Source of the DNA: Neckera pumila
Taxonomy: Eukaryota > Streptophyta > Bryopsida > Hypnales > Neckeraceae
Direction: 5' to 3'
Length of the DNA: 64,000 nucleotides
Assembly (NCBI GenBank): GCA_963969595.1
Contig: OZ018408.1
Span: forward strand, 22,131,823-22,195,822
The position numbers and the translations under genes are program-made. Positions 3,464-64,000 of this stretch are shown in pieces. Within the stretch, counting starts at the first letter, position 1. Each line of letters opens with the position of its first letter. Below the pieces are notes generated by a model, which saw nothing but the letters and a program-made list of their open reading frames with translations, was not told the DNA's origin and did not search any database.

Positions 3464-4371
3464 CCACTAAAGGCCCAAGGTCTTTTTTTTGCCAAAAAAC
3501 ACCGAATACTGCCATTTTTATAGCAAAGAGTAAAAAAAATGAAAAATGTTTTTCTTGCACATCTAATCGTAGGATCTGACACCCAACTAGTATGAGAATG
3601 TGTGCAAAAAATTTCAAAATTTTTGACCGCACAGATAGCAAGATATCTATGCTCAAAGTAAAAAAAACAAATTTTCCAATACATTGCAGGACTAGATTTT
3701 ATGACTTTGAACATTTTTAACTTAAATTTTTTGCATTATAGAGTTTTGAGCTTCAAATCTTTATAGTGGAGAATTGAGTTGAGAATCTAGGGGGGAAAAT
3801 GAAGAACTCAAAAAACTTAATTTTCACTCTTAAAAAATTGTTAAGTAGAAGTAGATATGAGGTTGAAGGAAAATCTAAAATATTCATATTTTTAAGATGG
3901 AATTAAAATACACTAATTCCAATGGTGAGATTTTTCTAGCAAGCAAACTAAACCATGTGAAACTTTTTTTTTGAAAAATTGCAAAAGTTACATTCTGAAA
4001 TGAATATTACAAGTTATTTTTCAAAAAGATGCTCTAATTGCCCAAAAAATAAGATTGTCCTTAAAAATCCAAATGAAATGAATAAAAGCTCTCCAAATAG
4101 ACAAAAATATAATATATAAGAAAAAAAAATTAAAATTAAAAAATTAAAATTTTTGCAAAATTTTTTTTACTGCCTCCTCTCCCATGTTTTGAGCTTATTT
4201 GGACATAACTTTTTTTCCCGGGCACCGATTGAAAAAAAAATCATATTCCCAAGAAGCTTAGCAGTTTTTCTATCTTCCCAAAAGTTTCAAAAAATCACTA
4301 CAAAAATTCAGTCCATAGGTACCTACCCGAACTCCCATTTGTCCCCTGAAGGGTCAATGGGCCTTTAGGGA
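3464..4371 (-). mobile_element. TTAA-1 element, copy 1 (subgroup a)
   Basis: The left end is TTAA|CCACTAAAGGCCC and the right end reads GGGCCTTTAGGGA, followed by TGAC where TTAA is expected. The right 70 bases, read on the minus strand, match the left end of the copy at 43237 (CCCTAAAG, then a short GGGGACAAATGG-type stem, then a GGTAGGTNCCTATGG-like stretch), so this copy is reversed. The interior is AT-rich with poly-T runs and no credible ORF. It is a non-autonomous DNA transposon of about 0.9 kb with a decayed right target copy. Confidence 0.7.
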
Positions 4372-4471
4372 TGACCTATATTTCTCACATCTGAAGCACT
4401 TAGTAGTTTAAGTGCGTGAATTTGCTTTGTTGCTTGAGTTTGTGATCTGATACTACTCTATTTGAACTTGC

Positions 4472-5265
4472 GCAGAGGTTGCTCAATGCCTTAGTGATGA
4501 GCTTGATTGCAGGTTCCCACAGCAAGAGCTCCTGGATGCATTCGGAATCATATATTTGCAATTCTGGCGACTAGACGGAGTTGATGCTAGTATCGACCAT
4601 CACTTGGCGGTGCTTAAAGAGTTTTTTTTGCAAGAGCAAGAGCAGTTAACAAAGGACAGTCCTATAGTGTTTTAAAAATGTTAAATCAACGTCCAACTTG
4701 GACAATCAGTAGGGCCTCTTCAAAGTGACAATGAAGGCAAATGCAAAGGCAGCATTGCGCGCCCTTCCACCAAAATCTCGTCATAAAATTGTGGCACAAA
4801 CTCTTCCAATTAAGTCATTTGAGTAAGCTGATTTTAGAATATTTTGCAACTTGTTGAGATAGGATGTTGCTTGGTTCTTGATTCAGTGGAGGATGAGAGA
4901 TGTTTCTCTACTCTTAAGTTTCTCAAATCTTGCCAAAGAAATAGGTAAGGGAATCATTTGCCCATTGTTGTGCGGATGTTTGGCCAAAAATACTTTACAC
5001 TTGAGAATTTTCCTTACAAGGAAGCCACTGAACCATAGAAAAAAGCAGTAAAGGTAGGCTGGTAAAGGATGTCTAAAGTAGGAGCAATGGAACCAGTATC
5101 TTCAATTCCTCACCTATACAAAATTTTGCCTAAGTTTTCATGAGGTTAGGCATGCCTTGCAATTCAAGTTTCTTTTACTGAAGATTCAGTGGAACTTGCT
5201 GCCAGAGCTGCTGCTGCACATGGAGGATGACATGAACGGAGACCACAGAGTGGAGGTGTAAAATT
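4472..5265 (+). pseudogene. hAT-type transposase relic
   Basis: Two separated stretches read like a plant hAT-superfamily (Ac-like) transposase. The first, at about 4472-4674, is open for about 65 codons and includes RFPQQELLDAFGIIYLQFW and HHLAVLKEFF. The second, at about 4885-5040, reads SVEDERCFSTLKFLKS, then HLPIVVRMF and LENFPY. That second block resembles the C-terminal hAT dimerisation region with its ERxFSxLKxxKS-type core. In-frame stops and frame changes separate them, so no protein can be made. No flanking 8-bp duplication or terminal repeats were found. Family call is from motif memory only. Confidence 0.5.
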
Positions 5266-5871
5266 GCAGCGACTGGAGATTTGGAGTTGCCTTGGCTTTG
5301 TACACAACTGTTTGTTACTTTTTTCCTAACCCTTTAATGTGTCTTGTTTGTGTTGTGTTGTGCAGTTGTGCAGATCACTAAAAGTGCATTTGGATAGTCT
5401 AAAAGGTTCAAATCCCTTGTTAGTGGCATGAATTTCTTTTATGGGACTTGGAAATAAAAATATTGGACAATTCTATTGGAATACAATGAAATTGTAAACA
5501 CTTGTTTTGCCCTATGAAAATAAATGCTATTGTATACCATGTTTGTTTTCCACTTTAGCAAATTGTGTGCATCTTGAATCATAGAAAATAGCCATTATAT
5601 ATTATGTTTGTTTTCCAACTTAGCAATTGTAGGCACCTTGAATCACAAAAAATAGCTTTATGTTTGCACCCAATCATCCACATGTCGCACCATAAACTCT
5701 ACCAACAAAAGAAATGACTGTAAAATTCCACATTTTGAAATCCACTTTATCTGATTGTTTCCACCAAATAATTGTTCTCTATGTTGCAAAAATAGCTCTT
5801 TCCTAGGGCTCGGCTATAGCCTCCTAACGAAATAAGGCAAAAAGATTCTGGAAATGCTGAAAGTGAGTGGT
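5266..5871. repeat. non-coding; 62-bp imperfect tandem duplication
   Basis: No gene is seen. A block with GTTTGTTTTCCACTTTAGCA and an ATCTTGAATCATAGAAAATAG tail at 5539-5592 is repeated, slightly diverged, at 5603-5655. The remainder is AT-rich. Confidence 0.5.
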
Positions 5872-5875
5872 TAAT

Positions 5876-6825
5876 CCCTAAAGAACCAAGTGTCTGTTCA
5901 ACATACGCAAGAAATCTCGGGTAGGTTCCTATGAAGTCATTTTTGGTCGGATGTTTATGAAATTTAGAAACAATGTGTAAACATGTACTTTCTTGGTGAA
6001 AAAACAATTCTTTTTCTGATCCGGTGCATAGATAAAAAGTTTTTCTACCTTGAGTTTTAAGGCAGCTTGGGCAATTTAAGAATCTTTTGAGAATCTTTTG
6101 CAAAAAGCTCATCATCTTTTGAAATTCGGCATGTTTGTAACTAATAAAATATGGCATACAATTATCCAAAAAAAAAATTAGTTCTCAAATCACATTCTAA
6201 GAGGAGTCAAACTTTGTTATCTATATTGGGGCGGTTTCAAAAAAAAACATTTTCTTCTAAATTCAAGTCCTATTATCTTGCAATTTGTGAAGTCAAAATT
6301 CTTGAACTTTTTTCCACATATTCCAAATGTTTGTCTCTAATTTTCACCTTTTGGATATCCAATAAGAAGTTTCCTCATTGCACAAGAAATCATCAAAAAA
6401 TGACTAGTGTGTTGCCAATTCAATTAACCTCCTTGCATTGCAGGGTGATTTAGTGTAAGCTAGACATCTCAATTGCTTCTAAAAATTTTCATGAGTGAAG
6501 TTAACATCATATACTTATGAATGATCAAGATCCTAATTTTTGTGTAGAGCAAAAATTTTACTCCAAGAGGGCCCGAAGTCTGCTGACCTTGTTTCACAAA
6601 AATGAAAAAAGTTTTTTTTTCTCGCTTCAAACGTTATAATCTTTCAATCTGCACGGTCAAGTGGGCTAAATTTTTTTCCACACTCTAGTAAAATACTTTA
6701 TTTCAATTTTGTATGGTTGAAGTTTCAAAAAAAAGTTTCAATTTTCATTTTTGAAAATCAAACCAAAAAGCCGCAATTTTTGACAATGTCTCCCTGACTG
6801 AAAAAACCCTCGGTCCTTTTAGGGG
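5876..6825 (+). mobile_element. TTAA-1 element, copy 2, with perfect TTAA flanks
   Basis: The left end is TTAA|TCCCTAAAGAACC and the right end is GGTCCTTTTAGGGG|TTAA, giving 950 bp between two TTAA copies (5872-5875 and 6826-6829). The flanking sequence AAGTGAGTGG-TTAA-TGTTTTT exists uninterrupted, in inverted orientation, at 8645-8670, which acts as a paralogous empty site. The interior has no transposase-like frame; the minus-strand frame at 5747-6169 crosses the left boundary and is spurious. The target and termini fit the piggyBac superfamily (inference). Confidence 0.8.
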
Positions 6826-7139
6826 TTAATGTTTTTTTTTAAGAAGAAAGTTTTCTAGAAGGTGCGACACAGAGTGTACTTTATTTCCATGCTTCATTCG
6901 AATCATTCTCTTACAACTAGTCATTATGATTTTGAGGAGGTGCTGGGTGGCCACAACTGTGGCATTTTGGTGCACCTCTGAGGTTCAGCCACGTCATGGA
7001 TTCAGGGTTCAAAAACAGCCAGTTCATGGATTCAGGGTTTACAAGAACAGCACGCAATCAGCCAGTCTGCCAAAAAAACAGAATCTTACACACAACGGAG
7101 ACGGAAAGATTTGTCGGACCTTATCCGCTCGAGGCACGC
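6826..7139 (+). repeat. inverted repeat, left arm
   Basis: About 310 bases recur in reverse complement at 8312-8670. The inner 215 bases (6926-7139) are so similar that both arms encode the same 71-residue frame, ending at CTCGAGGCACG / CGAGGTAC. The outer part is more diverged, with small insertions. The arm itself holds two direct copies of a CATGGATTCAGGGTT motif. The arms enclose a hAT-type transposase relic, so they may belong to a foldback or hAT-related element (inference). The shared ORF is probably not a gene. Confidence 0.75.
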
Positions 7140-7547
7140 ACCTTATCCGCTCCAGTCCGTCCAGCGCTGTTTCCGCCTTTTGCAACGTTGGAGGCCTGGA
7201 GCAGCGTTCGGGAAGATTTTGGAGCTCTACCAGTAGATATCCTCCTTCTACAACAATGGTCCGGGTTTTTTTTAGAGGGCACCGGTTTCATCCTTTTAAC
7301 TCTGAATTTTTCCGGTTTTTTGCCCCACATATCAATTTGTAACCGGCCTATTTCCTTCCAAGTGAAAATTTGAAAAGTGAAAATCCTCTAATGTCAAAAA
7401 ATTGCCGGTTTACAATCTAAAAAAGACATTACATTCTTGGCAAGAATTGAACTGGCATAGCCTTTCACCAACTGAAAGCCAAGAATCCTCCCAACCCATG
7501 CAATATGGAGTTAAGGATGGTCATTGAAAAGGTTGCAAAAATCAAAG
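7140..7547. other. loop of inverted repeat, no gene
   Basis: Spacer between the inverted arms. It is moderately GC-rich, then AT-rich, with several ACCGG motifs. No feature is recognised. Confidence 0.4.
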
Positions 7548-7780
7548 TTAGGGTTCAGAATTTTCACCTTCTTCAAAAGGATCCTCTGCTCCCTTTGTTA
7601 AATACTTCTCAGGATTAGTAAATAAATATCTAAACTTTCTAGCATTCTTCCATAAGATGATGGCATCCATTAAAATGGGTTCAAAGTCTTGGGCTGGTCC
7701 TTCCATGTTCACACGCATGACACTATCCAAATGTGTTGTTGTCATGCGATTTCGGGTAGTGCGAGAGGCGGCCAGGCGAG
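7548..7780 (-). pseudogene. C-terminal fragment of hAT-type transposase
   Basis: The minus-strand frame reads RTTRNRMTTTHLDSVMRVNM, then a FEPILMDAIILWKN stretch, and ends at a stop at 7548. This resembles the C-terminal dimerisation end of plant BED/hAT transposases, where an (R/K)NRM(T)-hydrophobic stretch is followed by DSVMRINMEGP-like sequence. Everything N-terminal is missing and the frame runs into unrelated Ala-rich sequence upstream. It sits in the loop of the large inverted repeat, so the pair may be one dead element. Confidence 0.55.
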
Positions 7781-7799
7781 AGCGGAGGAGGGCAATGGC

Positions 7800-8311
7800 C
7801 AGCGGGGCGGCAGGTAGGTCGGGCAGGTTTAGGGTTTTTTTGTTTTTTTTACTTTTAGTTATTAAAAAAAATTTCAAACGGCCCTCCCGCCCCTCTTCCT
7901 CGGGTGCTCCCCTACGGCCAGCTGGCCCTGTCCCCAGCTGGTCCCACTGACCCCCTTATGCAATACCCGGCCTCTTTATCTCAATACCCAACGTATCCTA
8001 ACCCCAGATATGTGCCACTTACGGTACATGTATAGCAGCTAAAATCCTCCTTTTTACAAAACAAACCGATTAAAATCCACCCTATTATAAATTGAGGCGG
8101 GTAAATTATCCCCCAAATTTTTATGTACACCGGTTGATTGCCTATCTTATCAATTTTTCCTCCAGTTTTCCATCCTTCACTTTCAAAGCTCAACCGGTTT
8201 TTTGACCATTTCAACCGGCTAACTTTGTATTAGCCGCCGGTTCTTCCCGGACATTGGCCTGGAGGTCTGGTTCTGGACCCTCCAGGCCCCCATGGAAATG
8301 GGTCCTAACAG
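7800..8311. other. loop of inverted repeat, no gene
   Basis: Contains a GC-rich stretch (7890-7950), then AACCGG-containing AT-rich sequence. No coding or repeat feature is recognised. Confidence 0.4.
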
Positions 8312-8670
8312 TGTACCTCGAGCGGATAAGGTCCGACAAATCTTTCCGTCTCCGTTGTGTGTAAGATTCTGTTTTTTTGGCAGACTGGCTGATTGCGTGC
8401 TGTTCTTGTAAACCCTGAATCCATGAACTGGCTGTTTTTGAACCCTGAATCCATGACGTGGCTGAACCTCAGAGGTGCACCAAAATGCCACAGTTGTGGC
8501 CACCCAGCACCTCCTCAAAATCATTAGGATTGAAGCAGCTCAGTTGCAAGAGAATGATTCGAGTGGGAGCATGGAAATACAGTAACTTATTACAGTACTG
8601 TACACTCTGTCTGTGTCGCACTCACCTTCTAGAGAACTTTCTTATCAATAAAAACATTAACCACTCACTT
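8312..8670 (-). repeat. inverted repeat, right arm, with empty TTAA site
   Basis: Reverse complement of the left arm starting at 6826. Reading outward on the minus strand it continues through TTAA (8657-8660) into GTGAGTGGTTAATGTTTTT. This is the sequence that flanks the TTAA-1 copy at 5876-6825 on both sides but without any insertion. It therefore documents the target before insertion and shows that exactly one TTAA was present. Confidence 0.75.
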
Positions 8671-12722: not shown

Positions 12723-13926
12723 CATTATAGAAAATCTAGACTTTGTAGAGGGCTGTTAGGGTTTTGGCAAATGTGCAAATACAGTGAATATAATAACAAT
12801 AATAATTTTTTTATAAAATATAAGTATATATATTTTTAAAATAATAAAAAGTCATTCTTTTATCAGAATTCTGACGGGGCACCTTGGCCGACTGCTCACC
12901 TTACAAATTGTGTGACAGCCTTTTTGGACTGATATTTTTCCTAAATGCAAATTTTCATGCATCCATTTTGGCCATGTAGAAGGCTAAAATTTTCTTTAAT
13001 CCCTAAAGTCCCAGTGTCCCCTCAGGGGATAAAATAGATTTTGGACAGGCTCCTATGGGCTCAATATTTATAGTCATTTTTTGAATTTTTTTGTGAAGAT
13101 AGAAAATCACATTAGCTTTCCAAAAATGTAATTTTTATTTCAATTGGTGCTTGGTAACAAAAGTTATGGCAGAAAACTATAAATTTTAGTTTGGCAGGCA
13201 GAAAAAACAACTCACAACAACTTAAAATTAAAAATTTTAAAAATTTGTTTCATATAGATTTTATTTTCATCTACATGGAAAGCTTGTATTCATTCCATTT
13301 GGATTTGTTATGCAAAAGTTATGGACAATCTTATTTTTTGGGCAATTAGAACATCTTCTTGAAAAAATAACTTGTAGCATTCATTTCTGAACTCAATTTT
13401 GACAATTTAAAAAAAAAAAGTTTTACAAAGTTAAGATTTTTTGCTAGAACAATCTCACCATTGAGATTAATATATTTCAACCCTATCTTAGAGCTATTAA
13501 TGATTTCATTTTTCCTTCAATCTTGAACCTACTTCTACTCACAAATTTTTAATGAGTAAAAACTAAGTGTTTCTTTTTAGAATTTTTTTTTCTAAGAATC
13601 TCAACTCAATTCTTCATTATATAAAAATAGAAATTCAAAATCATTAGAGCAAAAATTTTAAGTTAAAAAGGTTCAAAGCCGAAAAATATAGTTGAACAAG
13701 GTGCAAAAAAACTTGATTCTTTCACTTTAAATGCAAGTATCTTGTAATCTACACGGTAAAAGTTTCTAAAATTTCTTCGACACATTCTTATACTAGTGCA
13801 ATATAAGATTCTATGGTGAAATATGCAAAAAATACATTAGATTTTTTTTTTTGCTCTTTGCTATAGAAATGGCATTTTTGAGTGGTTTTGGATGGAAAAA
13901 CGGCCTTGGGAATTTAGGGATTAATG
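12723..13926. mobile_element. CATTA-AGAAAAT MITE, split by a TTAA-1 element
   Basis: The left end, CATTATAGAAAATCTAGACT, matches the left end of the element at 61788. Both then continue with an ACAAATACAGTGAATA-like core and a GGCAC-TGGC(C/T)-ACTGCTCACCTT motif. The right end, AAAATTTTCTTTAA, stops at 12999 and resumes as TTAATG at 13921 after the inserted TTAA-1 copy. With one TTAA removed, the end reads AAATTTTCTTTAATG, the expected terminal repeat. The uninterrupted element would be about 280 bp. Confidence 0.65.
13000..13920 (+). mobile_element. TTAA-1 element, copy 3, nested
   Basis: Ends are TTAA|TCCCTAAAGTCCC and AATTTAGGGA|TTAA, 921 bp between perfect TTAA copies (12996-12999 and 13921-13924). 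It is subgroup a: TIR, then a CCTCAGGGG-containing stem, then GATTTTGGACAGGCTCC, and a distal ACAAGATCCTA-like (here ATAAGATTCTA) motif. It is inserted in the terminal repeat of the MITE described at 12723-13926. No transposase-like frame is present. Confidence 0.8.
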
Positions 13927-14679: not shown

Positions 14680-14892
14680 CAATATCCGAATTTTGGAAAA
14701 TAGATATACTTTTATTGTAATTAGATTCTAATACTATTTAGGTTTAAATTTTTTCCACACATTCTAACACTAATTAGGTGTAAGATCCTATGGTTAGATG
14801 TTAAAAAAAAATCAAAATTTTTTACTCTCTGCATCGAAATGACAATTTTGAGTATTTTTGGGTAGAAAAAATGGACTTGGTCGTATTGGAGT
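14680..14892 (+). mobile_element. TTAA-1 fragment, right end
   Basis: The distal motifs of subgroup a recur in order (a GTAAGATCCTATGGTTA block, an AAATGACAATTTTGAGT block, then GGACTTGG...GGAG|TTAACG). It is a decayed right end without a matching left end. Confidence 0.45.
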
Positions 14893-19800: not shown

Positions 19801-21637
19801 GGATGTGAGTTAGCGGAAGCGCGTGTTGTGGGACTGCAGGATGAGCTGTTGTGGGGAGCCGCGTGGCTGTACAAAGCAACTGGAGATAATAGGTACCTCA
19901 AATACCTCGTTGACAACAGCATGAGAATGGGCGGAGCCATAGCAACTGTTCGCGATTTCAGCTGGGATAGTAAATACGCAGGCTTCCAAGTGCTGCTTGC
20001 CAAGGTACGACCACAATAATTCTTAAGATCTCTTGCAATTAATAACATTTATCCATTGGAAACTAAATCTAGCTTTATTAGTTGTGCAATTGCAGCTGTA
20101 AGACTTAACAATGTCCTCGCGCTAATTAATCACTAAGTAAATAATCAGATCATTCTTCATCTTGTGCAGTTTGCAATGAAGGGCACGCCGGGTCTTCAAG
20201 GTTACAAGGATCGTGCCGAAGACTTCATCTGTTCTGTATTGCCGAAGAGCATCAGTCCCATCTCGAAAGTTGATGTCACTCAAGGTACTGTATAATTTAA
20301 TAGTTGACGGTGCCATTTGTAACCACCAGTTTCAAGTTCGTATTAATTATTGTGAGGCAGTAATCTCGTACTTTTATAGTTGCAGATGTTTATAAGGCTA
20401 ATCGATAAACTCTGTGACTCTTTCGGATTTGCAGGAGGGCTGCTACTTTTCAGAAGTGGTGACCGATCCGACCTGCAATTAGTGACAGCAGCTACGCTGC
20501 TTCTCACAGTCTACTCCAATTATGTTGCGGACGTGGGTGGGGTGATCAATTGCGGGGGAACTCGTGTAGCCCCGGTACAACTCTTTGAGCAAGCACGAAG
20601 ACAGGTATACAGTTCATGTCATTGCATAACATTTTACACCAGACTTTCCACTTAGATTTACGTGATGTGCATAACGAGCTAGCTAGTCGAGCAACCCTGA
20701 CAAAGAATTCCTTGTTCACAACATTTGGTCTAACTAGGACTTAAAAACAAGATTACTCTAACATCTTCTTAATACTGGGCTCATTTCCTCCCGTCTTGAA
20801 AACGTGGACAAGACAACGACGTTTCCCCATAAAAATTGACATCCATCTTTAGTGAATGATCGAGATTTAATGGCCCTAGCCTGTGAATGAACCAATCCTA
20901 AGGTCATCTTTGTCCAAAAGATATGTATGACCAAAACCTTAAAAAGTCGACCAACACGTATCCAGCACTGAAAAATGTCCAAGCTCCAACCGATCCTTTC
21001 AATCGTCACGTGTCCACTGAAAAGAGGATCGGTCCTGGATGGATTTATTCATATATCTCAATATTGGAACAATCAGAAAACTGCCAATTTACTTGGAAGT
21101 GCCATTGATCAGAGTTTGTGGAGTGGGTCATTCGAAGGCCGGCTCTTAATTAGTGGATAGATTTGTGGATATATCTCAATATTGGTACGATCAGAAAATT
21201 GCCAATTTAATTGCAATTGCCATCAGATTTTGTGGAGTGAGACATTCGATCGATGGTTGACGTACTCTTAATTACTAGATGTTCCGTTGTATGAGTTGAA
21301 CCGTTTTTGTTCCGTGCAGGTGGATTATATTCTGGGAGTCAATCCGCAAGGCATGTCATACCTGGTGGGCTTTGGAGCCAAGAGCCTTACGCAGGTGCAC
21401 CACCGAGCAGCGTCCATCCCTGCTGTGAGAGTGAAACCAGACAAGGTGACTTGCCAGCAGAGTTGGGCGTACTTCAACAACGCAGGGCCCAACCCCAACC
21501 AAGCCACGGGAGCCATCGTGGCTGGGCCGGACCGCTACGATAACATCGTGGACGTGCGATCCAACCATGAGCAGATGGAGCCGTCCACTTACACCACTGC
21601 TTGCATTGTGGGAGTGCTGGCTGTGCTTGCCACTTAG
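16867..21637 (+). CDS. GH9 endo-beta-1,4-glucanase, gene 1 (8 exons)
   Basis: Exons: 16867-17106, 17619-17831, 18128-18328, 19595-19687, 19840-20004, 20170-20284, 20435-20604 and 21320-21637, giving 504 residues. A hydrophobic signal peptide (about residues 10-32, ending VRPVAA) predicts secretion. The rest is one GH9 catalytic domain, with no C-terminal carbohydrate module or membrane anchor, so it is the secreted class. Catalytic features are present: [11 protein letters not shown] (Asp89, Asp92), HHRAAS (His426/427), and the C-terminal signature with Asp473, Asp477 and proton donor Glu486 in EQMEPSTY. It should cut beta-1,4-glucan in the wall. Intron 1 appears to use a GC donor (AAT|GCAAGC); a GT donor at 17155 would add 16 residues in frame but breaks the family spacing LNDG-x4-VDLTGG. 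All other introns are GT-AG. Confidence 0.9.
19193..19374. mobile_element. poly-C/poly-G foldback element in GH9 intron 3
   Basis: The outer inverted repeats begin CACAGGGAAA(C/A)(T/C)GGGAGGT and continue GATACCC on both sides. Inside, TTCAACA-TGTAACTTCCCCC pairs with GGGGGAAGTTACATGTTGAA, giving an almost complete hairpin with runs of about 18 C and 10 G. The loop is only about 30 bases. The CAGGG ends suggest a hAT-type MITE, but the target duplication is unclear. Confidence 0.65.
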
Positions 21638-40424: not shown

Positions 40425-40975
40425 GATGTAAAAGGAAAAGAAAGAGAAATCAAAATATTTCTCAAAGAAAATTAAAAACTGGAAGAAATTAGGGTTTTGG
40501 AGAAAATAGAGTTTTGAGGAAAAATTAGGGTTTTGAAAAATTAGGAATTAAAGATAAAGATAAAACCTAAGATAAAGATAAAGATAAAATTAAAATAAAG
40601 ATTAAAATCAAAATCAAAATTAAAGATTAAAGATTAAATAAAAGTAAAAGTAAAAGTATAGATAAAGATAAAAATGAAGATAAAGATAAAGATAAAGAAA
40701 ATACAGTAATAAAGAAATAGATGGAAATCAAGATAAAGATATTATCAAATGAAATATTTATATATAATTGAAAATGAAAGGTCAATTTAAAAATAAAATA
40801 AAATAAAATAAAATTTTAGAACTTTGAAACAAGGGTTTGGAAGGTTGAAGAAGAAGAACTTTGAAGCCGAAAGGATGTAAGGAAGAAAGAGAAGAAGAAC
40901 TTGGAGATGAAGGGGGGAGTTTCAAAAGAAGGGGAAAAAAAAATAGATTGAAGAGTTGCACAAGAAGTAAAATAA
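40425..40975 (-). other. copia untranslated leader, AT-rich
   Basis: Leader between the 5' LTR and gag. It contains long GATAAA/TAAAGA-type simple repeats (40550-40800). No coding sequence. Confidence 0.6.
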
Positions 40976-41898
40976 CCCCTAAAGGACCAACATGCGTTTT
41001 TTGGCCGTACAGAAATTTTGGGCAGGTACGTGTGACTAGAGATATCCATATTTGAGGTTGAAATTTTAATAGAAGGTGGGGGCAAGGAATATCTTCATGT
41101 GTACCAAGTTTCATGACATTTTGAAATACGAGTCAAAAGTTGTGACCTAATATGTTGCTTTTTTTCGTAACTGGGCAGTTTGGGCAGATCAGAAAAAATC
41201 ATTTTTTCCGGAATTTTTTTTTGAAATTGGTTCTCTACATTTATATATACTTTAAAAGCTTTGAGTCATTCCATTTCAATCAATGAGTCAAAAGTTATGA
41301 GGGTTTTTGGTTTGCGGGCAGTTAGGGATTGTCTACTCAAAAAAAATCTTTAAAGTCGTTTATTTAACTCAATTTTCAATATTTTTGGAAAATAAATAAA
41401 TCCTAGGATGTAAATTGATTATTAAAACATTACAACCGTTGGGATTGGTATTTTTACATTCCATGATTAAAATTTTAACAATTTAGTATTTTGAATCATT
41501 TTCTACTTCTGTCTACTTACTATTTTTTTCCTATATGTTGTACAATTCCAAATGATGTGAAATTTTTCAAGCATATATACAACTTGTTTAGGAAACTGAA
41601 TTCAAAGAAGCACCACCTTTTTGGGAATTTTTTCATTGAAAAGTGAGCTTGCAAAGTGCAGCTGCCCGGTTTTTCGCAGGATTGAAAAAATGGTTTTCAA
41701 GACTTTGAATGCTTATATCTTATGATCCACACGGTGGAATTTTCTGAAATTTTTACCACATGTTTTCAAAATATCATACTACAAGATCCTACGGTTACAT
41801 GTGTCAAAAATTGTTTTTTTCCCAAAATTTGGTAGTTGTATTAGAAATGGCAGTTTTGGAGCGTTTTTGGTGAGAACATAGTCATGAAACTTTAGGGG
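40976..41898 (+). mobile_element. TTAA-1 element nested in the copia leader (subgroup b)
   Basis: Ends are (A)TAA|CCCCTAAAGGACCAACATG and AACTTTAGGGG|TTAA, 923 bp. The left flank is ATAA rather than TTAA. Sequence order matches the copies at 29957 and 63232. Because it lies inside the copia element, it inserted after the retrotransposon. Confidence 0.82.
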
Positions 41899-42289
41899 TT
41901 AAGGCGGGTGTGGAGCGGTGGCAAAACAAAACAAAAACAACAAAAACAAAGAACAAAAACAAGTAGTGAAGTACAGAACGGCACAGAGAGGTTCGGGTGG
42001 GAGCAGGTCGGGAAGACAGGTGAGCAAAGGGGTAGGAAGCACAAAAAGAAAAACTGCGGGGAGTGCACAAAGTGGGAGATGGAGGCGGTTGGGAGGCAGA
42101 GGGGTTGCAAAGCTCCACGGGGGCCGCGAGGAGAAGTCGAATGCCAGAAAATGAGAGCTCCAGGGACTCCAAGGAGAAAAGTAGATGGAGGGGGCAAGTA
42201 AAGCTTCCTCACAAAATCTAAAAACTAAATCGGAAGTATAGAATGAAAGTCTACAAAAAATTTGAAAGTACAAAAGCGTGCTGATAACG

Positions 42290-42512
42290 TGTTGAGGATA
42301 TAAAACAAAACAAAGTTGTAAAACATAAGAACAACAAAAATACACTCAAAAGAATACCATCCTTCATTGGGGTTTGAAGTATAAACAAGGAGAATAGGAG
42401 AGAGACGATGAATAGTTGTCTCCTCCTATTCGTCCAAGAAGATTTCTTCTAATCCTAGTGACAAGTGTCACTCACCATATTGTGGTGAGCGTTCACACTA
42501 CGTTCCTTAATA
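42290..42512 (-). repeat. copia 5' LTR
   Basis: TGTTGAGG...CCTTAATA on the plus strand; the last CA is mutated to TA. It is the same length (223 bp) as its partner. Confidence 0.9.
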
Positions 42513-43006: not shown

Positions 43007-43236
43007 CACTATAAAAAACACGTGTTTTCTTTGATGTCTGACTAAAAATGTAGCATGTCCAAGCTGGTATGATGCGTCCAAGAAAACGTTGAGATGTCTA
43101 ATGGACAAGAGCCTCGAAATTGTAAATTTTCGTGGATGTTGTGAAAAACAGAAGAAAATTACTATCATAGTAGTTGGATGCTACCAAGAACAACCATGTT
43201 TTTGAAGACATTACTGCAGACATATTTGTACTTTAA

Positions 43237-43814
43237 CCCCTAAAGTCCCATTGTCCCTACGGGGGACAAAATGGATTTTGGGCAGGTTCCTATGAGCTCA
43301 ATTTTTAATGAAACTTTCTGAAACTTTCCCATAAGATAGAAAAACTTATTAGCTTTTGGGGAATGTAATTTTTATTTCAATCGGTGCCCGGGAGCAAAAG
43401 TTATGCCCAAATAAGCTCAAAACAAGGGAGAGGGGGCAGCAAAAAAATTTTGCAAAAAATTTAATTTAATTTTTTTAATTTTTTTTCCTCATAGATTATA
43501 TTTTTGCCTATTTGGGAAGCTTTGATTCATTTCATTTGGATTTTTTATGAGGAAGTTATGGACAATCTTGTTTTTCGGGTAGTTAGAGCATCTTCTTGAA
43601 AAAAACTTTTTCTTTCACTTTGAATGCTGATATTTTTCAATCCGTACGGTCAAACACCACTAAATTTTTACTACATGATCTATAAAAAGTGTAGTACAAG
43701 ATCCTACAGTTAGTTTCTAAAAAAAAATATTTTTTCTGATCTTTTAGATGAATGCAACAAAAGCAGCAGTTTTGAGTGATTTTTGACAGAAAAATGGCCT
43801 TGGGACTTTAGGGG
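43237..43814 (+). mobile_element. TTAA-1 element, internally deleted copy (subgroup a)
   Basis: Perfect TTAA at 43233-43236 and 43815-43818 encloses 578 bp. Termini are CCCCTAAAGTCCCATTG and CTTGGGACTTTAGGGG. It follows the 921-bp copy at 13000 up to the AGAGCATCTTCTTGAA motif, then jumps to the CTTTCACTTTGAATGC motif of the right third. It is therefore an internal deletion derivative, as cut-and-paste transposons produce. Confidence 0.85.
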
Positions 43815-44779
43815 TTAAAAATCATCCAAGAAAACAGTCATGGCCACATCAGCATCCCTGGTCCATTTTAACTCCGGGTAAGCCAGTGGAAATTACTATG
43901 GGCTAGGATAAAATAATTGCCCTAGGTGGAAAAAAAAAAAGGAAGGGTAGGCGGGTAGAAAAAAAAAGCTAATGTGGCACCTGACGTTTCAGGTGACATG
44001 GAAATTCAGTGACGTGGACACTAGAAAGTTGACGTGGCATGACACGTCAGTATAGGGGGTCCAACTGCATCACATTCATGGATGTTCTTGTAGACATCAT
44101 TTGGGACGTACAGATGCTTTTGCAGACATTACTTTTGGCTACATCATCAGGAGCTTTGTACGACTGGGACGTCCTAACGCATGTTGTACAATGTGTAATT
44201 CCTTACGTTTTACCAGACAGCATATCATATTGAAAAGTTTTGACACACGTCAGGCACTGTCTTTGTAGACATCCAAGTTGATGTCTACACGTTTATACAG
44301 ACGTCAATGGAGATGACACTGCCATCTCCAACATCTAAATGTCTTCTATTTGCCCTTGCTCTTTGTCAAAGACGTGCCCTTCCCTACATTGGAGTCACGG
44401 ACATCAATGTTAATGTTCAGAAACATACTCACATATATCCATTGGAATTAGATATTACCTTTAGCAATGTCTGCAAGAATATGAACATGCATACTTTGCA
44501 TTCATGTTTAAGCCCTTTATTGTAGTGCACAAAGGCTGTAATCATATTGCACATAAATTCATGAGTACATATGTCTTTGCATCAATGTTGTGAACAACAC
44601 CAACATGTCTGTTGGGACATCTTGGATGTCCTCCATGACATCTCCATGCAACTTCTATTTGTAACACAATTTATGCGTTTATATATCCCATATGGTTTGT
44701 CTTACCTCTTGGCACCCCACTTGTATAAAGGGCTTGTCTTATTTTGTCTATTTACATCATAATAAATGGTTTTTAAAGT

Positions 44780-47369: not shown

Positions 47370-48430
47370 CAGTAAATATATTGTGCTTTTGTTTTTTAAC
47401 CACTTCAATATGTATGGTGTGTATGTTGTAATTCTATTGTTCTTTCTGTTCATCAATTAAAGGCCTGACATGATGTGAGCACGTGCAGGTAGTTAAATCT
47501 GAAAATTTGGAACCTTCAACACAATGGCGTGGGTAAGCTTACACTGTAATCACAAAGACTATAACAAGCTAGGTGACAAAAGCATTGATTCAAAAGGATT
47601 CACCAAGAGTGGAGCAATTTTTATTTATTTTTAATTTATTTTTATTTTTATGAAGTGCCAAAGTGGCAATATAAAATTATAGTGGTGCTCCAAATTTCAG
47701 CATTCATCCACTCATATTGGATAGAAAATATCACACTAGTACATATCATTTGTTTATAATTTTGTTTTCATCTACTGAATTTGATGATTTCATTCAAGAT
47801 TTTTTTGTAATTTGAAGCTTTCTAGCAAAATCTTTATGCTTTCTTGTCATTTTTAGCCAAATCATTTATTTTTGGTGCAATTTGGCACCAGAAATCCAAT
47901 AAAAAAAGCCCTAGAGTGGAGTATGAGAAAATTAAATACGATGATGGTCTACATGCACGCACGGTGTTGGAGAAGTCTCATCAAGCAGCAAAATGTGGTA
48001 TTCCACATGGAACCCATATTTTGTTAGAATGGCAATATTCCACAAATTCGGTAGTTGTAGGTTTAGACCATGTGATTTGAAATGTAAACCAATTGTACAT
48101 TTTAGACCATGTGGTCTGAAATCTCTACCAGTCCTAAAAAATACATGGAAAGATGCAGAAGGATATTGTGAAATATTCATTATGGACCCAATCACATCAC
48201 TCACTCAGCTAGCAGTGAATCACTCAGAGGTGGACCACTTACTTTTCAACGGACACGAAGTCTTGCAACGTACCAAGAACTCTGAGATTTCACTGGGGAG
48301 ATTCTAGATGTCTTCAGACACCAAGTATCGCAATTAATCCTCGATTCTGCCAAAGCTTGTAAAAGTAATTACGGATTGGCAGCATGGAATGCACATGCTG
48401 CAGCTGGTCGATTAATATGTAGCTCTCGAA
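47370..48430 (-). repeat. duplicated block, inverted partner of 23080-23850
   Basis: See the partner for shared landmarks. This copy differs by an R1 repeat insertion (about 48010-48180) and an AT-rich stretch (about 47600-47880) absent from the other. Confidence 0.7.
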
Positions 48431-51400
48431 TTTTATGTAGGTCTGATCATTTTGCCGCTTTCGAGACAAGAACGTCGTCGAGCATATATATATTGCTATG
48501 AATCTTAATATTCAATCCTTGTGAAAAAGGATTAGGCAAAAAACATTCAATCCATGTTTAATTAAAGGATCGTTCATTTCACAGGAGATCTGGCTGTTGT
48601 CGCGTTTAAGATATCATGATGCCTCCGTCGTTGTAAGCTCGTCTCGCTCATTGGTTGACTGTGGTGGCTTTAATTGCAGGTGCTGCCTTCCAATTTGTTT
48701 ACTAGTCGAACTGTTTTCTGACATAATAGTCATTTCATGCAAGTACGATGATGTCACGATTGCCTGATTCTCTTCTGCATTCTAAGTACGCCGTTAACAT
48801 CCAACAATAATTATGATGCTTGAAAAAAATGCAGAGACAATATTGGAAGTTTGATACAAGAGATATAAGCATCAATAATATTGCAAGCAGTTCAATAGAT
48901 TGGCTTAATTTGAGAAATACTACGTATCCATCTTCCGTCCGCTGCACTGTTGGGCGCTGCGACTCTCGAGTCGATCGTGACTGTCAACCCGAGAGGATTA
49001 ATTTCCTGCAGAACGCAATTTGTAACACCTTGAAGCCTTAGTTTCGAGAAACCCTAAATTTGGGCGGTATTTTCATATGCAAGCTAATTAAAACTCTCCT
49101 AAGGATGATGGCACTGTCAGTGATAGTAGTGAGCTTCATACTCAGTATACAAGGTTGCCTTGTGAACACGATTTTATTTTATGTGGGCCGATCGGCTCTC
49201 TACTGATTCAGCTTTTGAAAGACCTTTTGGCGAAAGGCGAGTCCATCCGAGAAACATTCTTAAGCCTATCTAAGGAGCAGTGCTTTAGAACAGTTGTAAA
49301 GCATAAATCGAAGGTGGATACATGAAATTTTTATCCTCAAAAGAAAATTGTTCCGTATCTTCCTCTGAACATGATTTCACCATCCAAAGTAATTTCGTGG
49401 TACCATGTCAGCCATATTGGGAGAACCTTCAAAGTGCCAGAAACGATGAGGCAGCCGAAGTTTCTACTTGCTCACAAGTGTCACCATCATTAAATCACCA
49501 TTTTTGTTTCTCCTCACTTTGAAACCACTTTCACTTCACACGCAGATTGTCACCTTGTGAGCTCGCTTGACTGATTGTGCAAATTAATGATGGTAAGAAC
49601 CATCAATGTTGTTTGGAGAAATTGCAATTGAGATTAATTAGAAAGCCTGAATTTTGCTTCAACGGCCATGAATGATGCTTTCGTTTTTGTCATTTGATTG
49701 TGAGTTGGCGTTCAAACTCTCTGTTACAGGTTAAAATGTCAAATTATCACAGCCAAAGTGCATTGATTACTTTGAGACGAAGCGAGAAATTTCCAACGAG
49801 AATCCAACAACCAAGCTACACATCTACGGATGCTTGGGATTTTGGCAACAGGAACCGTACCAGCGCGCTTGTCACTTGATTGAGACATTCAAACGGTGTG
49901 AGTTCTCGATCAAGTTCCACGTTACAGGCCTGGGGCTTGACAATAACACATCTATGTACCCCCTCTGCTCACTCGTAAAATTATTATCCAGCACTACAGG
50001 CTCCCTTTGGTGGCAGAAAGTAAAGACTTACCTTTGAGAAGTCCAAAGATGACTTCAAGTTGTTGCTGCCGAAGTTTATGCTTAAATATAATGAACACTA
50101 GTCGCGTCGTGGACGAAACCCACACATGCACTTTGGTACTGCACACCTACTATTCTAGTGATCGTGGGGTGTGCTGTTGCTGCCAGAGTTTCGACAACTT
50201 CAAACTCTCGAAGGAGAATGAGTTCTACGCTTTGGTCGGTGTCCGGGATCCCGGAGTTAGTTCTTACTCCTTTCAACCCTAGAATGTCGTCGAAGGAGCT
50301 CCTTGTAATTTTACGTTTCTCCACATGAGCAGATTCGAAGCTGCACAGCTTTTAACTCTTGAAGGTCGGAGTCGCGGTTTAAAAATGTACAATTTGATGG
50401 ATCAGAATATGAAAACTATTATTCAGATGAGTACAAATTTTATATCACCAAAATTCATGAAGACCGTTGCGTGTGTTGGTTGTTGAATAAATATAATTGT
50501 ACTGTCTGAAGAAAGTTCCCATTTTACGTGCTCTAAACTGCTGAAATGCTGTAATGTGAGGTAAACTTGGTCCTTTAGGAGTTAACATATTAAGCTTGTT
50601 TGACACGAGAATGTATGCAGATGTCTCTGCTGAAGCGATGGTCAAGTAGCACATCTCCTTCACTCTCGATTTCCAAAGCTTCACGTCAAGAGATTTGTTT
50701 TTAAGCAAGATCGCGCGCGGCAGTTACTGTAGAAATAGCATCCTCCTAGATGCATACGCTTCTAACACCCAAGCAGGAGAATCCAAATGGAAGTCACACG
50801 CGCACACCTAATCACAAGTACAGGCCAGATCCACAATTTGTTAGACGCTAGCACTTCCTATTAGTTCCGACCATCACAGTCAATGCAAGCAGTTGAGCAC
50901 CTTCTTCGTAATTGTCTCTAACCTCTGGATTTCCAGGGCGTACTTTGTCCTGAAGCATACTTCGCCTCTCATATCCATGTGCACAGTACATCGATTGAAG
51001 AATACATTAATCTTTCCCGAGCTAACTTATGAATGTGACCAAATGGATTAGTGAAACTTTTCAGATGAATTGATAATTTAGATTCGTGAGTGCTAACGAT
51101 CCATACAACGCGGAATGAGCATTCAAGGTACGTCAACCTCAAACTCCAGAATGCAGTTTGAAGCACCCAGAGTCCCTAACCACCGATGTCCCGAAGTCCT
51201 TTTTTCTGCCTTTGAAGCAACAAATCTCAAGCCGAGAACATCTGACCGTTCTGACGTAACTCTTACAACACCTAGTGGGTCATTTAAATACCGTGAATTA
51301 TACAAATGTTAAGTAAACGACGTAATACCGTCCTATGTGTATTTTTAACCTCATAGAGAACCAAGGACTCATATTTCTAGAACGACCAAGGATTTGTTTT

Positions 51401-51948: not shown

Positions 51949-55737
<3,789 letters not shown>

Positions 55738-56573: not shown

Positions 56574-57657
56574 GTTACCCCCCCCCCCCTGCCCCCGGTA
56601 GAAATTTGGGTGTGTGACTTGACACACACACTCCAAACTTTCTATCTTAACCCCTAAAGGACCAAACACCATTTTTTGGCAACATAGCAATTTTGGGCCG
56701 CTCACTACAAATGGAAATTTTATTTTTTCTCTTTGAAATTTTCACACAAGATGTACCCGAGGAGTAGCTTCAAGAATTCAAGGCCCAACAATTTTCATAA
56801 CTTTTGACTTTATGGGTAAACAATTATTGCATGATATATAATTTTCTGCGTTTGGTGGGCAGCCCAAGCAGTTCAAAAAATTTCTTGAAAAAACACTTTT
56901 TTGAAAAATTAAAATTTGAAATTGGTTTTATAGATTTATATATACTTGAAAAGCTTTGAATCATTCCATTTGGATTAACAAGTCAAAAGTTATGAAGAGT
57001 TTTAGTTTGAGGGTAGTTATGGAATTCCTACTCTAAAATAAACTTTGAAGTCCTTTATCTAAGTCAATTTTCAATATTTTAGAATAAAACAAAAAATATT
57101 GGTTGTATATTGTTTATTCAAACATTACAATCGTTGGGATTGGCATTTTTCAATTCCATAATTAAATTCTTGACAATTTAGTATTTTGAGTCATTCTCTA
57201 CCTCTTCCTACTTACTATTTTTTTCCTATATGTTGTACAATTCCAGATGATCTGAAAATTTCCAAGCATGTAGCCAACTTACCTTGAAGAATGAATCCAA
57301 AGAGTAACCACCATTTTGGACATTTTTTCATACCATTGTGACCTTGTGAAGGGCTACTGCCTGGATTTTTGCAGTGATTAAAAATGGATTTTTGTCAATT
57401 CAAACGCTATTATCTTGCAATCTATATGGACGTGGAAAATTCTGGAATTTTTTCCACATCTTCTTAAACCAGTGTACTACAAGATCCTACGATTACATGT
57501 GTTCAAAAATGTTTTTTTTCTAAAGTTTGGTACTTGTATTAGAAGTGGCAGTTTTGGAGCGGTTTTGGTGAAAACATAGTCAAAAACCTTTAGGGGTTAA
57601 GAAAATTGTGGGGGGGGGGAGTCAAGTCACACCTCGAAATTTCTACCGGAGGGGTAA
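56574..57657. mobile_element. poly-C/poly-G foldback, split by a TTAA-1 element
   Basis: Left arm: GTTACCCC, a C run, CCGGTAGAAATTT, GTGTGACTTGAC. The right arm in reverse complement is GTTACCCCTCCGGTAGAAATTTCGAGGTGTGACTTGACTCCCCC. Removing the nested TTAA-1 insertion leaves a hairpin of about 135 bp. Similar motifs (GTAACTTCCCC..., TAGAAATTTC) occur in the intronic element at 19193. Confidence 0.65.
56651..57596 (+). mobile_element. TTAA-1 element nested in a foldback (subgroup b)
   Basis: Perfect TTAA at 56647-56650 and 57597-57600 enclose 946 bp with ends CCCCTAAAGGACCAAACACC and AACCTTTAGGGG. The interior follows subgroup b. It sits near the centre of the foldback described at 56574-57657. 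Confidence 0.85.
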
Positions 57658-59725: not shown

Positions 59726-60648
59726 CTCCTAAAGGATTGGCATGTGTTTTGGAGGCTGTATAGAAATTTTGGACAGGTACATGTGACTAGAAATTTCTAT
59801 ATTTTAGGCGGAAATTTTAATGAAAGGTGGGCGCAAGGAATATCTTTCATATGCACTAAAATTTCATAACATTTGGAAATGTGAGTCAAAAGTGATGGCC
59901 TAATATGTTAATTTTTTTTGTAACTGGGCAGTCTGGACAGATAAGAAAAAGTCACTTTCTTTAAAACCAAAAATTTGAAATTGATTTTCTAGAGTTCTAT
60001 ATACATAAAAAGCTTTAAATCACCCCATTCTGATCAATGAGTCAAAAGTTATGAGGATTTTTAGTTTGCGGGCAATTATGGATTCTCTACTCTAAAATAA
60101 ACTTTGAAGTTCTTTATTTTACTCAATTTTCAATATTATAAAATAAAATAAAAAATCATAGGATGCATGTTGTTTATTACAACATTGCAACCATTGGGAT
60201 TAGCATTTCTCAACTTCATAATTAAATTCTTGAAAGTTTAGTATTTTGAATCATTCTCTACAATTATCTATTTACTATTTTTTTCTTATATGTTGGACAA
60301 TTCCAAATGGAGTGAAAGTTTTCAAGCATGTAGCCATCTTATCTAGGAAAAAGAATCCAAAGAAGCACCACCATTCAGGACTTTTTTCATGAAAAAGTGA
60401 GCTTGTGAAGTGCTACTACCTTGTTTTCTACGGGCCAAAAAAATGGTTTTTGTGAATTTGAATGCTTATATCTTGCAATCCACATGGTGGAAGTTTCTGA
60501 AATTTTTACCATATATTCTCAAGTCAGCATAATACAAAATCTTACGGTTACATGTGTCAAAAAGTTTTAAGAAAAAATTAAATACTCATACTAAAAATGG
60601 CAATTTTTGAGTGTTTCTGGTGAAAGCATAGTTATGGAACTTTAGGAG
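59726..60648 (+). mobile_element. TTAA-1 element, decayed ends (subgroup b)
   Basis: Ends CTCCTAAAGGATTGGCATG and GGAACTTTAGGAG; both TTAA copies have mutated. The interior follows subgroup b closely (TTTTAATGAAAGGTGGGCGCAAGG, AGCACCACCATTCAGGA, AATCTTACGGTTACATGTG). Confidence 0.75.
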
Positions 60649-60659
60649 AAAATGGTTAA

Positions 60660-61527
60660 CCCTTGGAGGACTAAGGAACCCACTTTGGGCCTTTTAAATA
60701 CTTGGGCACACTCTATTGACTTCAAGGTTTGTAATTTTTGCATAATCTCTCTAGGATAGACACTAAGCATCCTAATTTACATGTGATGCTTTGTTTCACA
60801 ACATTCCAATAAATATTGCAAAAGCTAGAAGTTTTTATAAATTTCAATGTCTAATTGAGTAGCTAAAATATATTCTAAAAAAATAGTAATTCATTTCATT
60901 TCACTTGGTAGATTCATACCTATACAAAAACATATGAACCATTCAATTCCAAATAATGAGATGAAAGCTATGAGGAGTTTTATTTGGTGGCCAATGAAGT
61001 TAGAAAAAACATATAAAGTTGCTTTTTGAATGCAAGTTTGACAATTTTCAAATAAAATAAAAAGAAAGGGTATTTATAGTTTACTAAAACATTCTCTCCA
61101 TTGTGATTGATAAGTCTCAATTTTTTGTAATTAATGTTATTCCTTTCATACAATACCACCTCCTACTTTATAATTTTTTTAAATATGAATAGAAAACTTC
61201 TTTAGGTTATAATTTCTTACAAGTATTTTTAGTCCCTTTTCTAGTATATTCATTTGACAAAAATGCACAAGTTATGGGATAGACATGTTTTCTTGTTAAA
61301 ATGTTGAAAGACAAAACTTTAGATTTTGGAAGGGCTAAAAAATCCTACTTTTCGAAGTGGACATTTTCACTCTAAAATTTTGAAGGATGTACTTGAACAA
61401 GTTAATTGAAGGATCCTATGATTAAATTTTGTTAGAAAATTAAGATATATAAAGATTTTGGGCTTACTTTAGATACTAATGTTTTGAAGCAATTTTGAGC
61501 CTCAAAAATACCACAAAACTTTGGGAG
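60660..61527 (+). mobile_element. diverged TTAA-1 relative
   Basis: Left end TTAA|CCCTTGGAGGACTAAGG, right end AAACTTTGGGAG|TTTA. The interior shows the same order of landmarks (a CATTCAATTCCAAATAATGAGATGAAAGCTATGAGG block, an AAGGATCCTATGATTA block, a GAAGCAATTTTGAG block) but strongly diverged. It may be a third subgroup. Confidence 0.5.
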
Positions 61528-62343: not shown

Positions 62344-62417
62344 AGTACAAGGCATTAAATAATCAAGATTCAGGTATTCTAATGCACCTTAATCTTGATT
62401 ATTGCATACCTTGTACT
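62344..62417. repeat. 74-bp hairpin, precursor-like
   Basis: AGTACAAGG and ATAATCAAGATT on the left pair with their complements on the right, separated by a small internal mismatch (CATTAA versus TATGCA). The arms are 27 bases and the loop about 20. It could be a tiny foldback element or a small-RNA precursor; no expression evidence. Confidence 0.55.
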
Positions 62418-62628
62418 CTAACCAAGTTTTGGAAAAAAAATCAAATGTCGAAATTAGTCCAATGACATCTACCATCAAGAATTTTTTAAATGGCAATGTG
62501 ATAGTCATAATTCACTGACAATTGGTGAAAATGAAGGGTGAAAAGTTATATAGAAAAATCAATTGTCCATGGTGAATCTTCAAAGAATGTGGAATATCTT
62601 GAAGAGAAATCACTCATTGTTCAAGTTC

Positions 62629-63008
62629 ACAAATTTTGTTCAAAGTCAAACTTGAAACCTCATTTAGGCATAGTAGAGTAATTTTTTTCAAAAATCTTTG
62701 AACTAAAAAAAGTGGAAAACTATTTCTAATTTTCATCTCCAAAAAATCCGTTTGAGGTTTAGAGCCTCTAACAAAAAGTTATGGACAAAATTCTAAAAGG
62801 ATATTTAAATGTCAAAGAAAATTCCCCTTTCAACCCCTTTTAGAATTTTGTCCATAACTTTTTATTGGAGGCTGTAAACCTCTAACAAACTTTTGGAGAT
62901 GAAAAATAGATTGATTTCCCACATTTTTTTAGTTCATACAATTTTGAAAAGAATTATTCTACTATGCCTAAATGAGGTTTGAAATTCAACTTTAAACACA
63001 ATTTCTGC
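62629..63008. repeat. large foldback, arms of about 170 bp
   Basis: The left arm (62629-62803) and right arm (62836-63008) are inverted copies. Shared stretches include GAAACCTCATTTAGGCATAGTAGA, TTTTCATCTCCAAAA and AAAAAGTTATGGACAAAATTCTAAAAGG. The loop is about 30 bases. Internal GTTATGGACAAAATTCT-like motifs recall TTAA-1 interiors, but no TTAA or CCCTAAAG ends are seen. Confidence 0.75.
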
Positions 63009-63231
63009 TTTTTACTTAACTATGAGCGGTTGTGCTCCTATTAATCCTAATTTACATATCCCACATGGGTTGTTGTACCTTACCACAATCCCACTTGTAT
63101 AAACATCTTCCATTTTCAACTTCAAACTTACTAAACTATATGGCTTACAAAGCTAGTTTGAAATCACTAGTGTTTCTAATTTTTTTGACAATTAGCATCA
63201 AAATCCACTTCATTTTGTTTAATTTGATTAA

Positions 63232-64000
63232 CCCCTAAAGGACCAGCCTGTTGTTTTTAGCAACATATCGATTTTGGGCATGTACTTGGGACTAGAGATT
63301 TTCATATTTTAAGCTGAAATTTTAATACAAGGTGGGGACCAGAAATATCTTTCATGTGCACTAAATTTCATGACATTTCAAGATAGGAGTCAAAAGTTAT
63401 GGCCTAACATGTTACTTTTTTCACCGAGCGGGCAGTATGGGCAGGTCTGAAAAAATCACTTTTTTCAAAAATAAAAATTTGAAATTGGTTTTCTAGAGTG
63501 ATATATACGTGGGAAGCTTTAAATCATTCCATTTTGACAAATGAGTAAGAAATTATGAGGTTTATTAGTTTCTGGGCAGTTACGGATTCTTTACTTTGAA
63601 ATAATCTTTGAAGTTGTTTATTTAACTCAATTTTTAATGTTTTTTGAAAAAAAAAATCATAGGATTTAGGCTGTTTATTAAAACATTAAAACCATTGGGC
63701 TTGACATTTTTCAATTCCATAATTAAATTCTTAACAGTTTAGTATTTTGGATCATTCTCTACTTCTTTCTACTTACTATTTTTTTTGTATATGTTATACA
63801 ATTCCAAATGATTTGAAAATTTTTAAGCATGTAGCCAACTTGTTTAGAAAAAATAATTCAAAGAAGCACCACCATTTTGGACATTTTTTCATACAAATGT
63901 GACTTTGTGAAGTGCAGCTGCCCTGTTTCTTGCAGGAACAAAAAAAGTATATTAGCCAATTCAAATGCTAATATCTTCCAATGCGCATGGTGGAAAAATC
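63232..64000 (+). mobile_element. TTAA-1 element, cut by the window end (subgroup b)
   Basis: Left end TTAA|CCCCTAAAGGACCAGCCTG (TTAA 63228-63231). The interior follows subgroup b up to the AATGCTAATATCTTCCAA motif, about 200 bases before the expected right end. Confidence 0.78.

Follow-up and report, generated by a model that had tools for sequence, protein, structure and literature searches.

The 64,000-nucleotide stretch of DNA analyzed here (the window; positions 22131823 to 22195822 of contig C1, in the 339.5-Mb, 18-contig assembly of the moss Neckera pumila) carries a set of short repeated elements that, we conclude with high confidence, are nonautonomous piggyBac miniature inverted-repeat transposable elements (MITEs) of this moss, most likely moved in trans by the transposases of longer elements. 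piggyBac itself is a cut-and-paste transposon familiar mainly from animals. The features found are those of piggyBac: a TTAA target, a terminal inverted repeat (TIR) starting with CCC, a DDE_Tnp_1_7 domain encoded between the ends, and the aspartates of a DDD transposase. An initial annotation of the window had inferred the piggyBac superfamily, and this inference is now supported by the presence of a DDE_Tnp_1_7 transposase in elements with the same ends, together with the TTAA flanks.

Within the window, the exact pattern TTAA-YCCCTAAAG occurs 10 times, both strands counted, and was absent from all 200 first-order Markov simulations; CCCTAAAG without a flank requirement occurs 12 times, both strands counted, compared with a simulated mean of 1.6 and maximum of 6. 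Because of these simulations and the reversed patterns described below, we reject a chance origin of the ends. A stricter scan, which paired TTAA sites only where 10 or more of 14 TIR bases agreed, gave seven pairs, of which three are family copies, against 0 to 4 in 20 simulations; this is the weaker count, because a copy's left and right ends frequently disagree in their last bases. When five copies were compared with the window by BLAST, 11 copies or large fragments were recovered (at least ten had been claimed in the initial annotation), as well as a small fragment at 14746 to 14880. The summed length of the family copies is about 9.1 kb, or 14% of the window, and the MITEs there, 0.59 to 0.95 kb long, fit this class in being short, numerous, and bounded by both ends. 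Four copies had been described as having TTAA on both sides, and they can be placed at 5871 to 6829, 12996 to 13924, 43233 to 43818, and 56647 to 57600. Likewise, the absence of a transposase from every copy is borne out by a tblastn search with 14 moss transposase frames, which gave no match in the window at an E value of 0.01.

The idea of a single family fares less well. The set with shared termini is real, but it splits into two main groups, A (copies starting at 29953, 34366, 40972, 56647, 59728, and 63228) and B (3460, 12996, 28414, and 43233), with the copy at 5871 outside both. BLAST identity is 72 to 83% inside the groups in most comparisons and 66 to 72% over parts between them. Ungapped identity among the window copies is mostly 60 to 85%, and their insertions are therefore fairly old.

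The same ends are abundant genome-wide. There are 23,504 exact YCCCTAAAGNNCCA ends (11,713 and 11,791 on the two strands), compared with 92 matches to a reversed-pattern control. TTAA directly precedes 19,976 of them (85.0%), and VTAA precedes 843 (3.6%); for both, the reversed control gave 0. Thus, the first base is T in 96% of the ends preceded by any base and TAA (19,976/20,819), which argues against the alternative of a TA or TAA flank whose outer bases vary freely. MITEs and full-length elements share the TIR, which opens with CCC and reads (C/T)CCCTAAAGNNCCA. Four right-hand flanks were read as TTCA (two) and TTAG (two). Among the exact ends listed for part of C1, nine facing pairs lie 585 to 932 bp apart and two lie 5.36 to 5.37 kb apart.

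Longer elements with these ends encode the transposase. In a profile search of the genome with PF13843 (DDE_Tnp_1_7), 116 of 872 candidates were scored, and all of these were above the Pfam cutoff, giving at least 116 domains; the best has an E value of 4.6e-80, and five of the eight best matches contain no stop in the domain. The 20 top-scoring of the 116 scored places (L009 to L028) were each examined within a 10-kb stretch. With at most one mismatch, ends in these stretches have TTAA at 34 of 39 positions, and those in the window have it at 11 of 17. A strict boundary rule, under which TTAA had to be followed by a TIR with no more than one mismatch in its first 12 bases, delimited an element at 10 of the 20 loci, each 5.4 to 7.3 kb long with TTAA on both sides. 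Six of the ten bounded elements carry ends of the form CCCCTAAAG[TC/GA]CCA, the terminal repeat of the window family, and a related repeat is found on the other four. These six are what the initial annotation had pointed to, namely full-length elements that share the ends and encode DDE_Tnp_1_7.

The bounded elements fall into three sets of sister copies: 5.63-kb elements (L009, L010, and L011; terminus CCCCTAAAGTCCCA) that are 98.8 to 99.2% identical, 7.2- to 7.3-kb elements (L017, L021, and L027; terminus CCCCTAAAGGACCA) that are 95.1 to 99.4% identical, with the two 7.3-kb copies at 99.4%, and 5.37-kb elements (L015, L016, L019, and L025; terminus YCCCTTGRGGACT) that are 98.7 to 98.9% identical. 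Homology between sister copies ends at the same TTAA, within 2 bases, with the exception of L015 and L019, where the shared sequence runs 8 bases further, as both adjoin a MITE end; in each of these two loci, the MITE and the full-length element have one TTAA in common. Because of these identities, the near-identical full-length copies suggest recent movement. In L009, L010, and L025, the full-length element interrupts a relative of a MITE, and once the flanks are joined, TTAA stands at the site. For L009 and L010, the uninterrupted relative also reads TTAA. Measured from stop to stop, the two longest intact frames in resolved elements have 894 (L009) and 900 (L027) codons, and those of L010 and L011 have 655 and 621.

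The protein predicted from L009 matches PF13843 over profile positions 4 to 347 of 349 (E value, 4.7e-81), and among solved structures, its sequence is related to piggyBac 6x67 (2.7e-35) and piggyBat 9c0f (1.6e-23). A Foldseek search with its AlphaFold model gave piggyBac 6x67 (2.4e-23) and piggyBat (4.6e-23), followed by Tn5 (4.6e-5); the predicted local distance difference test score of the model averages 55.9, and almost every residue up to ~335 scores less than 50. Four aspartates (D528, D619, D737, and D740) are invariant across L009 and 10 relatives, and they include those which we take to correspond to the catalytic residues of the Trichoplusia ni transposase. The catalytic motifs TIDE, MDNFFSS, and RGVDVADQ align with piggyBac, and 11 of the 14 moss frames contain all three. 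Several frames also have a Cys/His cluster at the C terminus, which may correspond to the Cys-rich zinc-binding domain of piggyBac transposases, but Pfam reported only DDE_Tnp_1_7 and one weak match below the cutoff.

In a tree of the 14 moss frames and 61 database proteins, made by a quick search with midpoint rooting and showing several long branches, all 14 moss frames group with 23 proteins from jgi, lgn, and ena (P0001 to P0023; 44 to 63% identical to the L009 transposase) in one clade with a Shimodaira-Hasegawa-like approximate likelihood ratio support of 99. Five rows with an animal name fall outside this clade. The 5.37-kb lineage is not represented in the tree, and the frame nearest to it is that of L022 (43 to 46%). 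Transposase relatives were also sought in viral_contigs (11 pattern matches) and genome_contigs (65), with none confirmed.

The long elements differ in architecture. In the 5.6-kb type (L009, 1881 to 7514), the open reading frame reads away from a hairpin-type end (TTGTCCC..GGGGGAC), while in the 7.3-kb type (L017, 1081 to 8303, and L021, 1589 to 8888), it reads toward such an end; the ends of the two types match, and the gene is reversed. Tandem arrays of 348- to 349-bp units are present in L012 (7397 to 9901; at least seven units), L023 (7394 to 8092; at least two), and L028 (7353 to 9442; at least six). Each array starts exactly at the TTAA beside a piggyBac end, and the unit holds a palindrome of ~50 bases. 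Two copies of a similar palindrome, spaced 349 bp apart, lie at 2185 to 2584 of L017, within the element.

What ties the MITEs to the full-length elements is sequence inside the termini. For the group B copies at 3460, 12996, and 43233, both ends can be aligned with those of full-length elements, over 53 to 180 columns at the 5' end and ~210 at the 3' end; for 43233 to 43818, these are 53 bases at 96 to 98% and ~210 columns at 75 to 79%. In group A, three copies whose 3' end is intact match full-length elements over 150 to 200 columns at 67 to 71%. Subterminal motifs like TTTYGGGYAGG on the 5' side and CAAAACTGCC on the 3' side recur, in varied form, in the MITEs and in two full-length types, and may correspond to the asymmetric subterminal repeats of piggyBac. 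Judged from these alignments, the superfamily link of the MITEs to the full-length elements is firm.

We propose that the MITEs are passengers of piggyBac-type cut and paste by a DDD transposase. They lack the transposase gene and retain, from the longer elements, the ~14-bp terminal repeat together with some subterminal sequence. The piggyBac-type transposase of the 5.4- to 7.3-kb elements would bind the common ends in trans, and the bound MITE would be cut out and then inserted at TTAA, leaving TTAA on both sides; excision would presumably be seamless, restoring one TTAA. We infer mobilization in trans, and likewise the pairing of transposases with MITE groups and any present-day activity. 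Origin of the MITEs by internal deletion of longer elements would be a good account of group B and an incomplete one of group A and the copy at 5871.

Several observations weigh against this proposal. The four intact group A 5' ends match full-length elements over their first 18 to 36 bases only, and the copy at 5871 to 6829 matches them in stretches of only 25 to 29 bases. The MITE interiors match none of the full-length elements read, and because of these short 5' matches and unmatched interiors, we regard the exact parents of the MITEs as not found among the full-length elements at the 20 loci. The strict rule gave no boundary at the other half of those loci (L012 to L014, L018, L020, L022 to L024, L026, and L028). 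The frame filter returned nothing for L013 to L016, L019, and L025, which include all four 5.37-kb elements, and three of the 14 frames (L018, L020, and L022) are without one or two of the searched motifs. Finally, the uninterrupted relative of the L025 insertion has TTCA and an 8-base gap beside the site, and a TA duplication within an obligatory T-TA-A, which looks identical to a TTAA duplication by sequence alone, may also have produced the flanks.

The brevity of the group A and 5871 matches would also be accommodated if these copies belonged to another TTAA-specific, piggyBac-like lineage, whose own transposase elements lie outside the 20 loci, the elements read being their cousins. Flanks were read at 20 of the 116 scored transposase places, which leaves room for such a lineage among the other 96. 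Nevertheless, the 150 to 200 columns shared by group A 3' ends, along with the terminal repeats and subterminal motif common to group A and the full-length elements, argue against it, and we consider a separate lineage unlikely, though far from negligible.

Much less credible is the notion that the MITEs represent a relic family to which the piggyBac transposases, arriving later, are unrelated, the ends being alike by chance. The window copies are indeed far more diverged than the full-length copies; however, the sequence common to group B and the full-length elements extends well past the termini at both ends, and two group A copies elsewhere in the genome are 93 to 94% identical to a window copy. 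We regard this account as very improbable.

Still harder to sustain is an assignment to Stowaway-like MITEs of the Tc1/mariner type that duplicate 2 bp (TA) and happen to prefer TTAA, to which we give almost no credence. TTAA on both sides can indeed be written as T-TA-A with one extra base in each terminal repeat. The outer bases are not free, however, as evidenced by the genome-wide excess of TTAA over VTAA, and the transposase in the same-ended elements is a DDE_Tnp_1_7 protein whose nearest solved relative is piggyBac, although Tc1/mariner genes were not searched for. We prefer a TTAA duplication because of the transposase family, on the basis of established knowledge of piggyBac. Least probable of all are PIF/Harbinger (Tourist-like) MITEs with a TWA duplication, since, although TAA and TTA are both contained in TTAA, a 3-bp TAA target would free the first base, which is nearly always T, the partner found is of the piggyBac type (Harbinger genes were not searched for), and PIF/Harbinger termini start with GGG or GGC, whereas the moss termini start with YCCC.

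The moss elements, read as piggyBac MITEs and their transposase-bearing partners, resemble piggyBac (IFP2) of T. ni and piggyBat of bats in having TTAA on both sides, termini with CCC, and a DDE_Tnp_1_7 transposase with DDD. They differ from both in their moss host, element length of 5.4 to 7.3 kb, frames of ~900 codons, the terminal repeat YCCCTAAAGNNCCA, and a long N-terminal part modeled with low confidence. Short piggyBac MITEs with TTAA are known from insects (e.g., Helicoverpa); here, the host is a moss, and the scale is 19,976 exact TTAA ends in 339.5 Mb. By comparison, T. ni piggyBac is given as 2,472 bp and 594 amino acids in PMC10140906.

For plants, PiggyBac is one of the seven MITE superfamilies that a review gives for angiosperms (PMC10004981), and the repeat table for Ceratopteris has a PiggyBac row with 1,230 copies and 122,417 bp (PMC6890710). 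These are assigned to the same superfamily, and the passages seen name no gene-bearing partner; the moss elements, in contrast, have a partner with the same repeat. Passages of two other papers state that piggyBac has been identified in plants and, in a 2025 paper, that piggyBacs are occasional there. Among the matches listed in searches of openly licensed papers, no described moss piggyBac family was seen; of two hits in the moss paper PMC10619864, the one displayed is the word "piggybacking." Therefore, the initial view that no large family of this type is well described in land plants needs qualification, given the PiggyBac MITEs listed for angiosperms, but it holds insofar as we saw no large plant family linked to a transposase. 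What is new is a large land-plant piggyBac family with its transposase; the superfamily itself is known, and what stands out is the host and the scale.

With its 116 or more transposase domains, its full-length copies that are almost identical, and its ~20,000 TTAA ends, this moss would set piggyBac firmly in land plants and would provide a native plant pair of transposase and MITE. More tentatively, and as an idea we doubt slightly more than we believe, piggyBac may be a major, recently active system of this moss and perhaps of mosses. Such a reading would draw on a clade apart from the animal sequences sampled, several coexisting autonomous lineages, two of them with matching ends but a reversed gene, as if ends had been re-paired with transposase cassettes in evolution, and the ~20,000 scattered TTAA ends.

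The individual copies in the window, on the plus strand unless stated otherwise, vary in completeness. In group B, the copy at 12996 to 13924 is complete and flanked left and right by TTAA; its TIRs agree at 13 of 14 bases, and both ends align with full-length transposase elements. The copy at 43233 to 43818 is also complete, with TTAA on both sides and 14 of 14 matching bases. The minus-strand copy at 3460 to 4371 has TTAA on the 3460 side and TGAC on the 4371 side, shares 73% identity with the 13000 copy across 931 columns, and matches full-length elements at both ends. An internal fragment (28414 to 28872) and the small fragment at 14746 to 14880, from the 3' part, also belong to this group. 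The copy at 5871 to 6829, complete and of its own kind, has TTAA on both sides and an interior largely unlike the rest.

Group A includes two complete copies: 56647 to 57600, with TTAA on both sides and 10 of 14 matching TIR bases, and 40972 to 41902, with ATAA on the left and TTAA on the right and with 93 to 94% identical copies in L019 and L026. The copy at 29953 to 30835 has TTAA and an intact 5' end and is without its last ~8 bases and right TTAA (78% to the 40976 copy over 919 columns). A 5'-truncated copy at 34366 to 34979 keeps its 3' end and TTAA (79% to the 40976 copy and 82% to the 56651 copy). The copy at 59728 to 60646 is full length, with decayed termini and no TTAA (79% to the 40976 copy over 930 columns), and that at 63228 to 64000 has TTAA and an intact 5' end and stops at the window edge (79% over 766 columns). 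A diverged family copy had been proposed near 60660; instead, 60656 to 60690 reads TTAA-CCCTTGGAGGACTAAGG, a terminus resembling that of another full-length piggyBac lineage (YCCCTTGGGGACTACGAGG), for which we found no right end.

Three more right ends resemble the TIR and adjoin TTAA, at 50568 to 50585, 52446 to 52463, and 52919 to 52936, and the pair scan gave no matching left ends for them. The stretch at 47645 to 47916 (minus strand) is a ~71% match to positions 4212 to 4495 of the 5.6-kb transposase element; it was ruled out as a piece of transposase, as it aligns downstream of the open reading frame. A telomere-repeat origin of CCCTAAA was likewise rejected: C1 starts with such repeats, but the window matches are single ends bounded by TTAA.

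The window holds other repeats and gene pieces. A copia-type retrotransposon lies at 35144 to 42510 on the minus strand, with 221-bp direct repeats that are 96% identical and a gag-like frame just below the Pfam cutoff. The group A MITE at 40972 sits between this frame and a long terminal repeat (LTR), outside the LTRs, and the LTR pair is therefore unusable as an empty site. At 6921 to 8529, two inverted arms of 217 bp, 99% complementary, are 1175 bp apart, with short complementary stretches just beyond them. Inverted repeats with short loops at 25833 to 26102 (128-bp arms, 90%) and 62628 to 63007 (117-bp arms, 81%) are possibly other MITEs. Pfam identified gene pieces of glycosyl hydrolase family 9 and of an RFT1 homologue (21272 to 21637, 52457 to 52837, and 55315 to 55737 on the plus strand and 26341 to 27027 on the minus strand).

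In the assembly, contigs C1 to C11 each exceed 10 Mb, and C12 to C18 are 16 to 115 kb; the chromosome number, like the organelle contigs described below, is consistent with a moss. C13 to C16 (L030 to L033; 16 to 17 kb), with a G+C fraction of 0.53 to 0.56 in the first 1.5 kb, look like bacterial contamination. C17 (103,982 bp) starts with a Proton_antipo_M frame of the NADH-dehydrogenase/antiporter family, read as nad4, and a group II intron of the plastid ndhA/ndhB type is present on C18 (115,000 bp).

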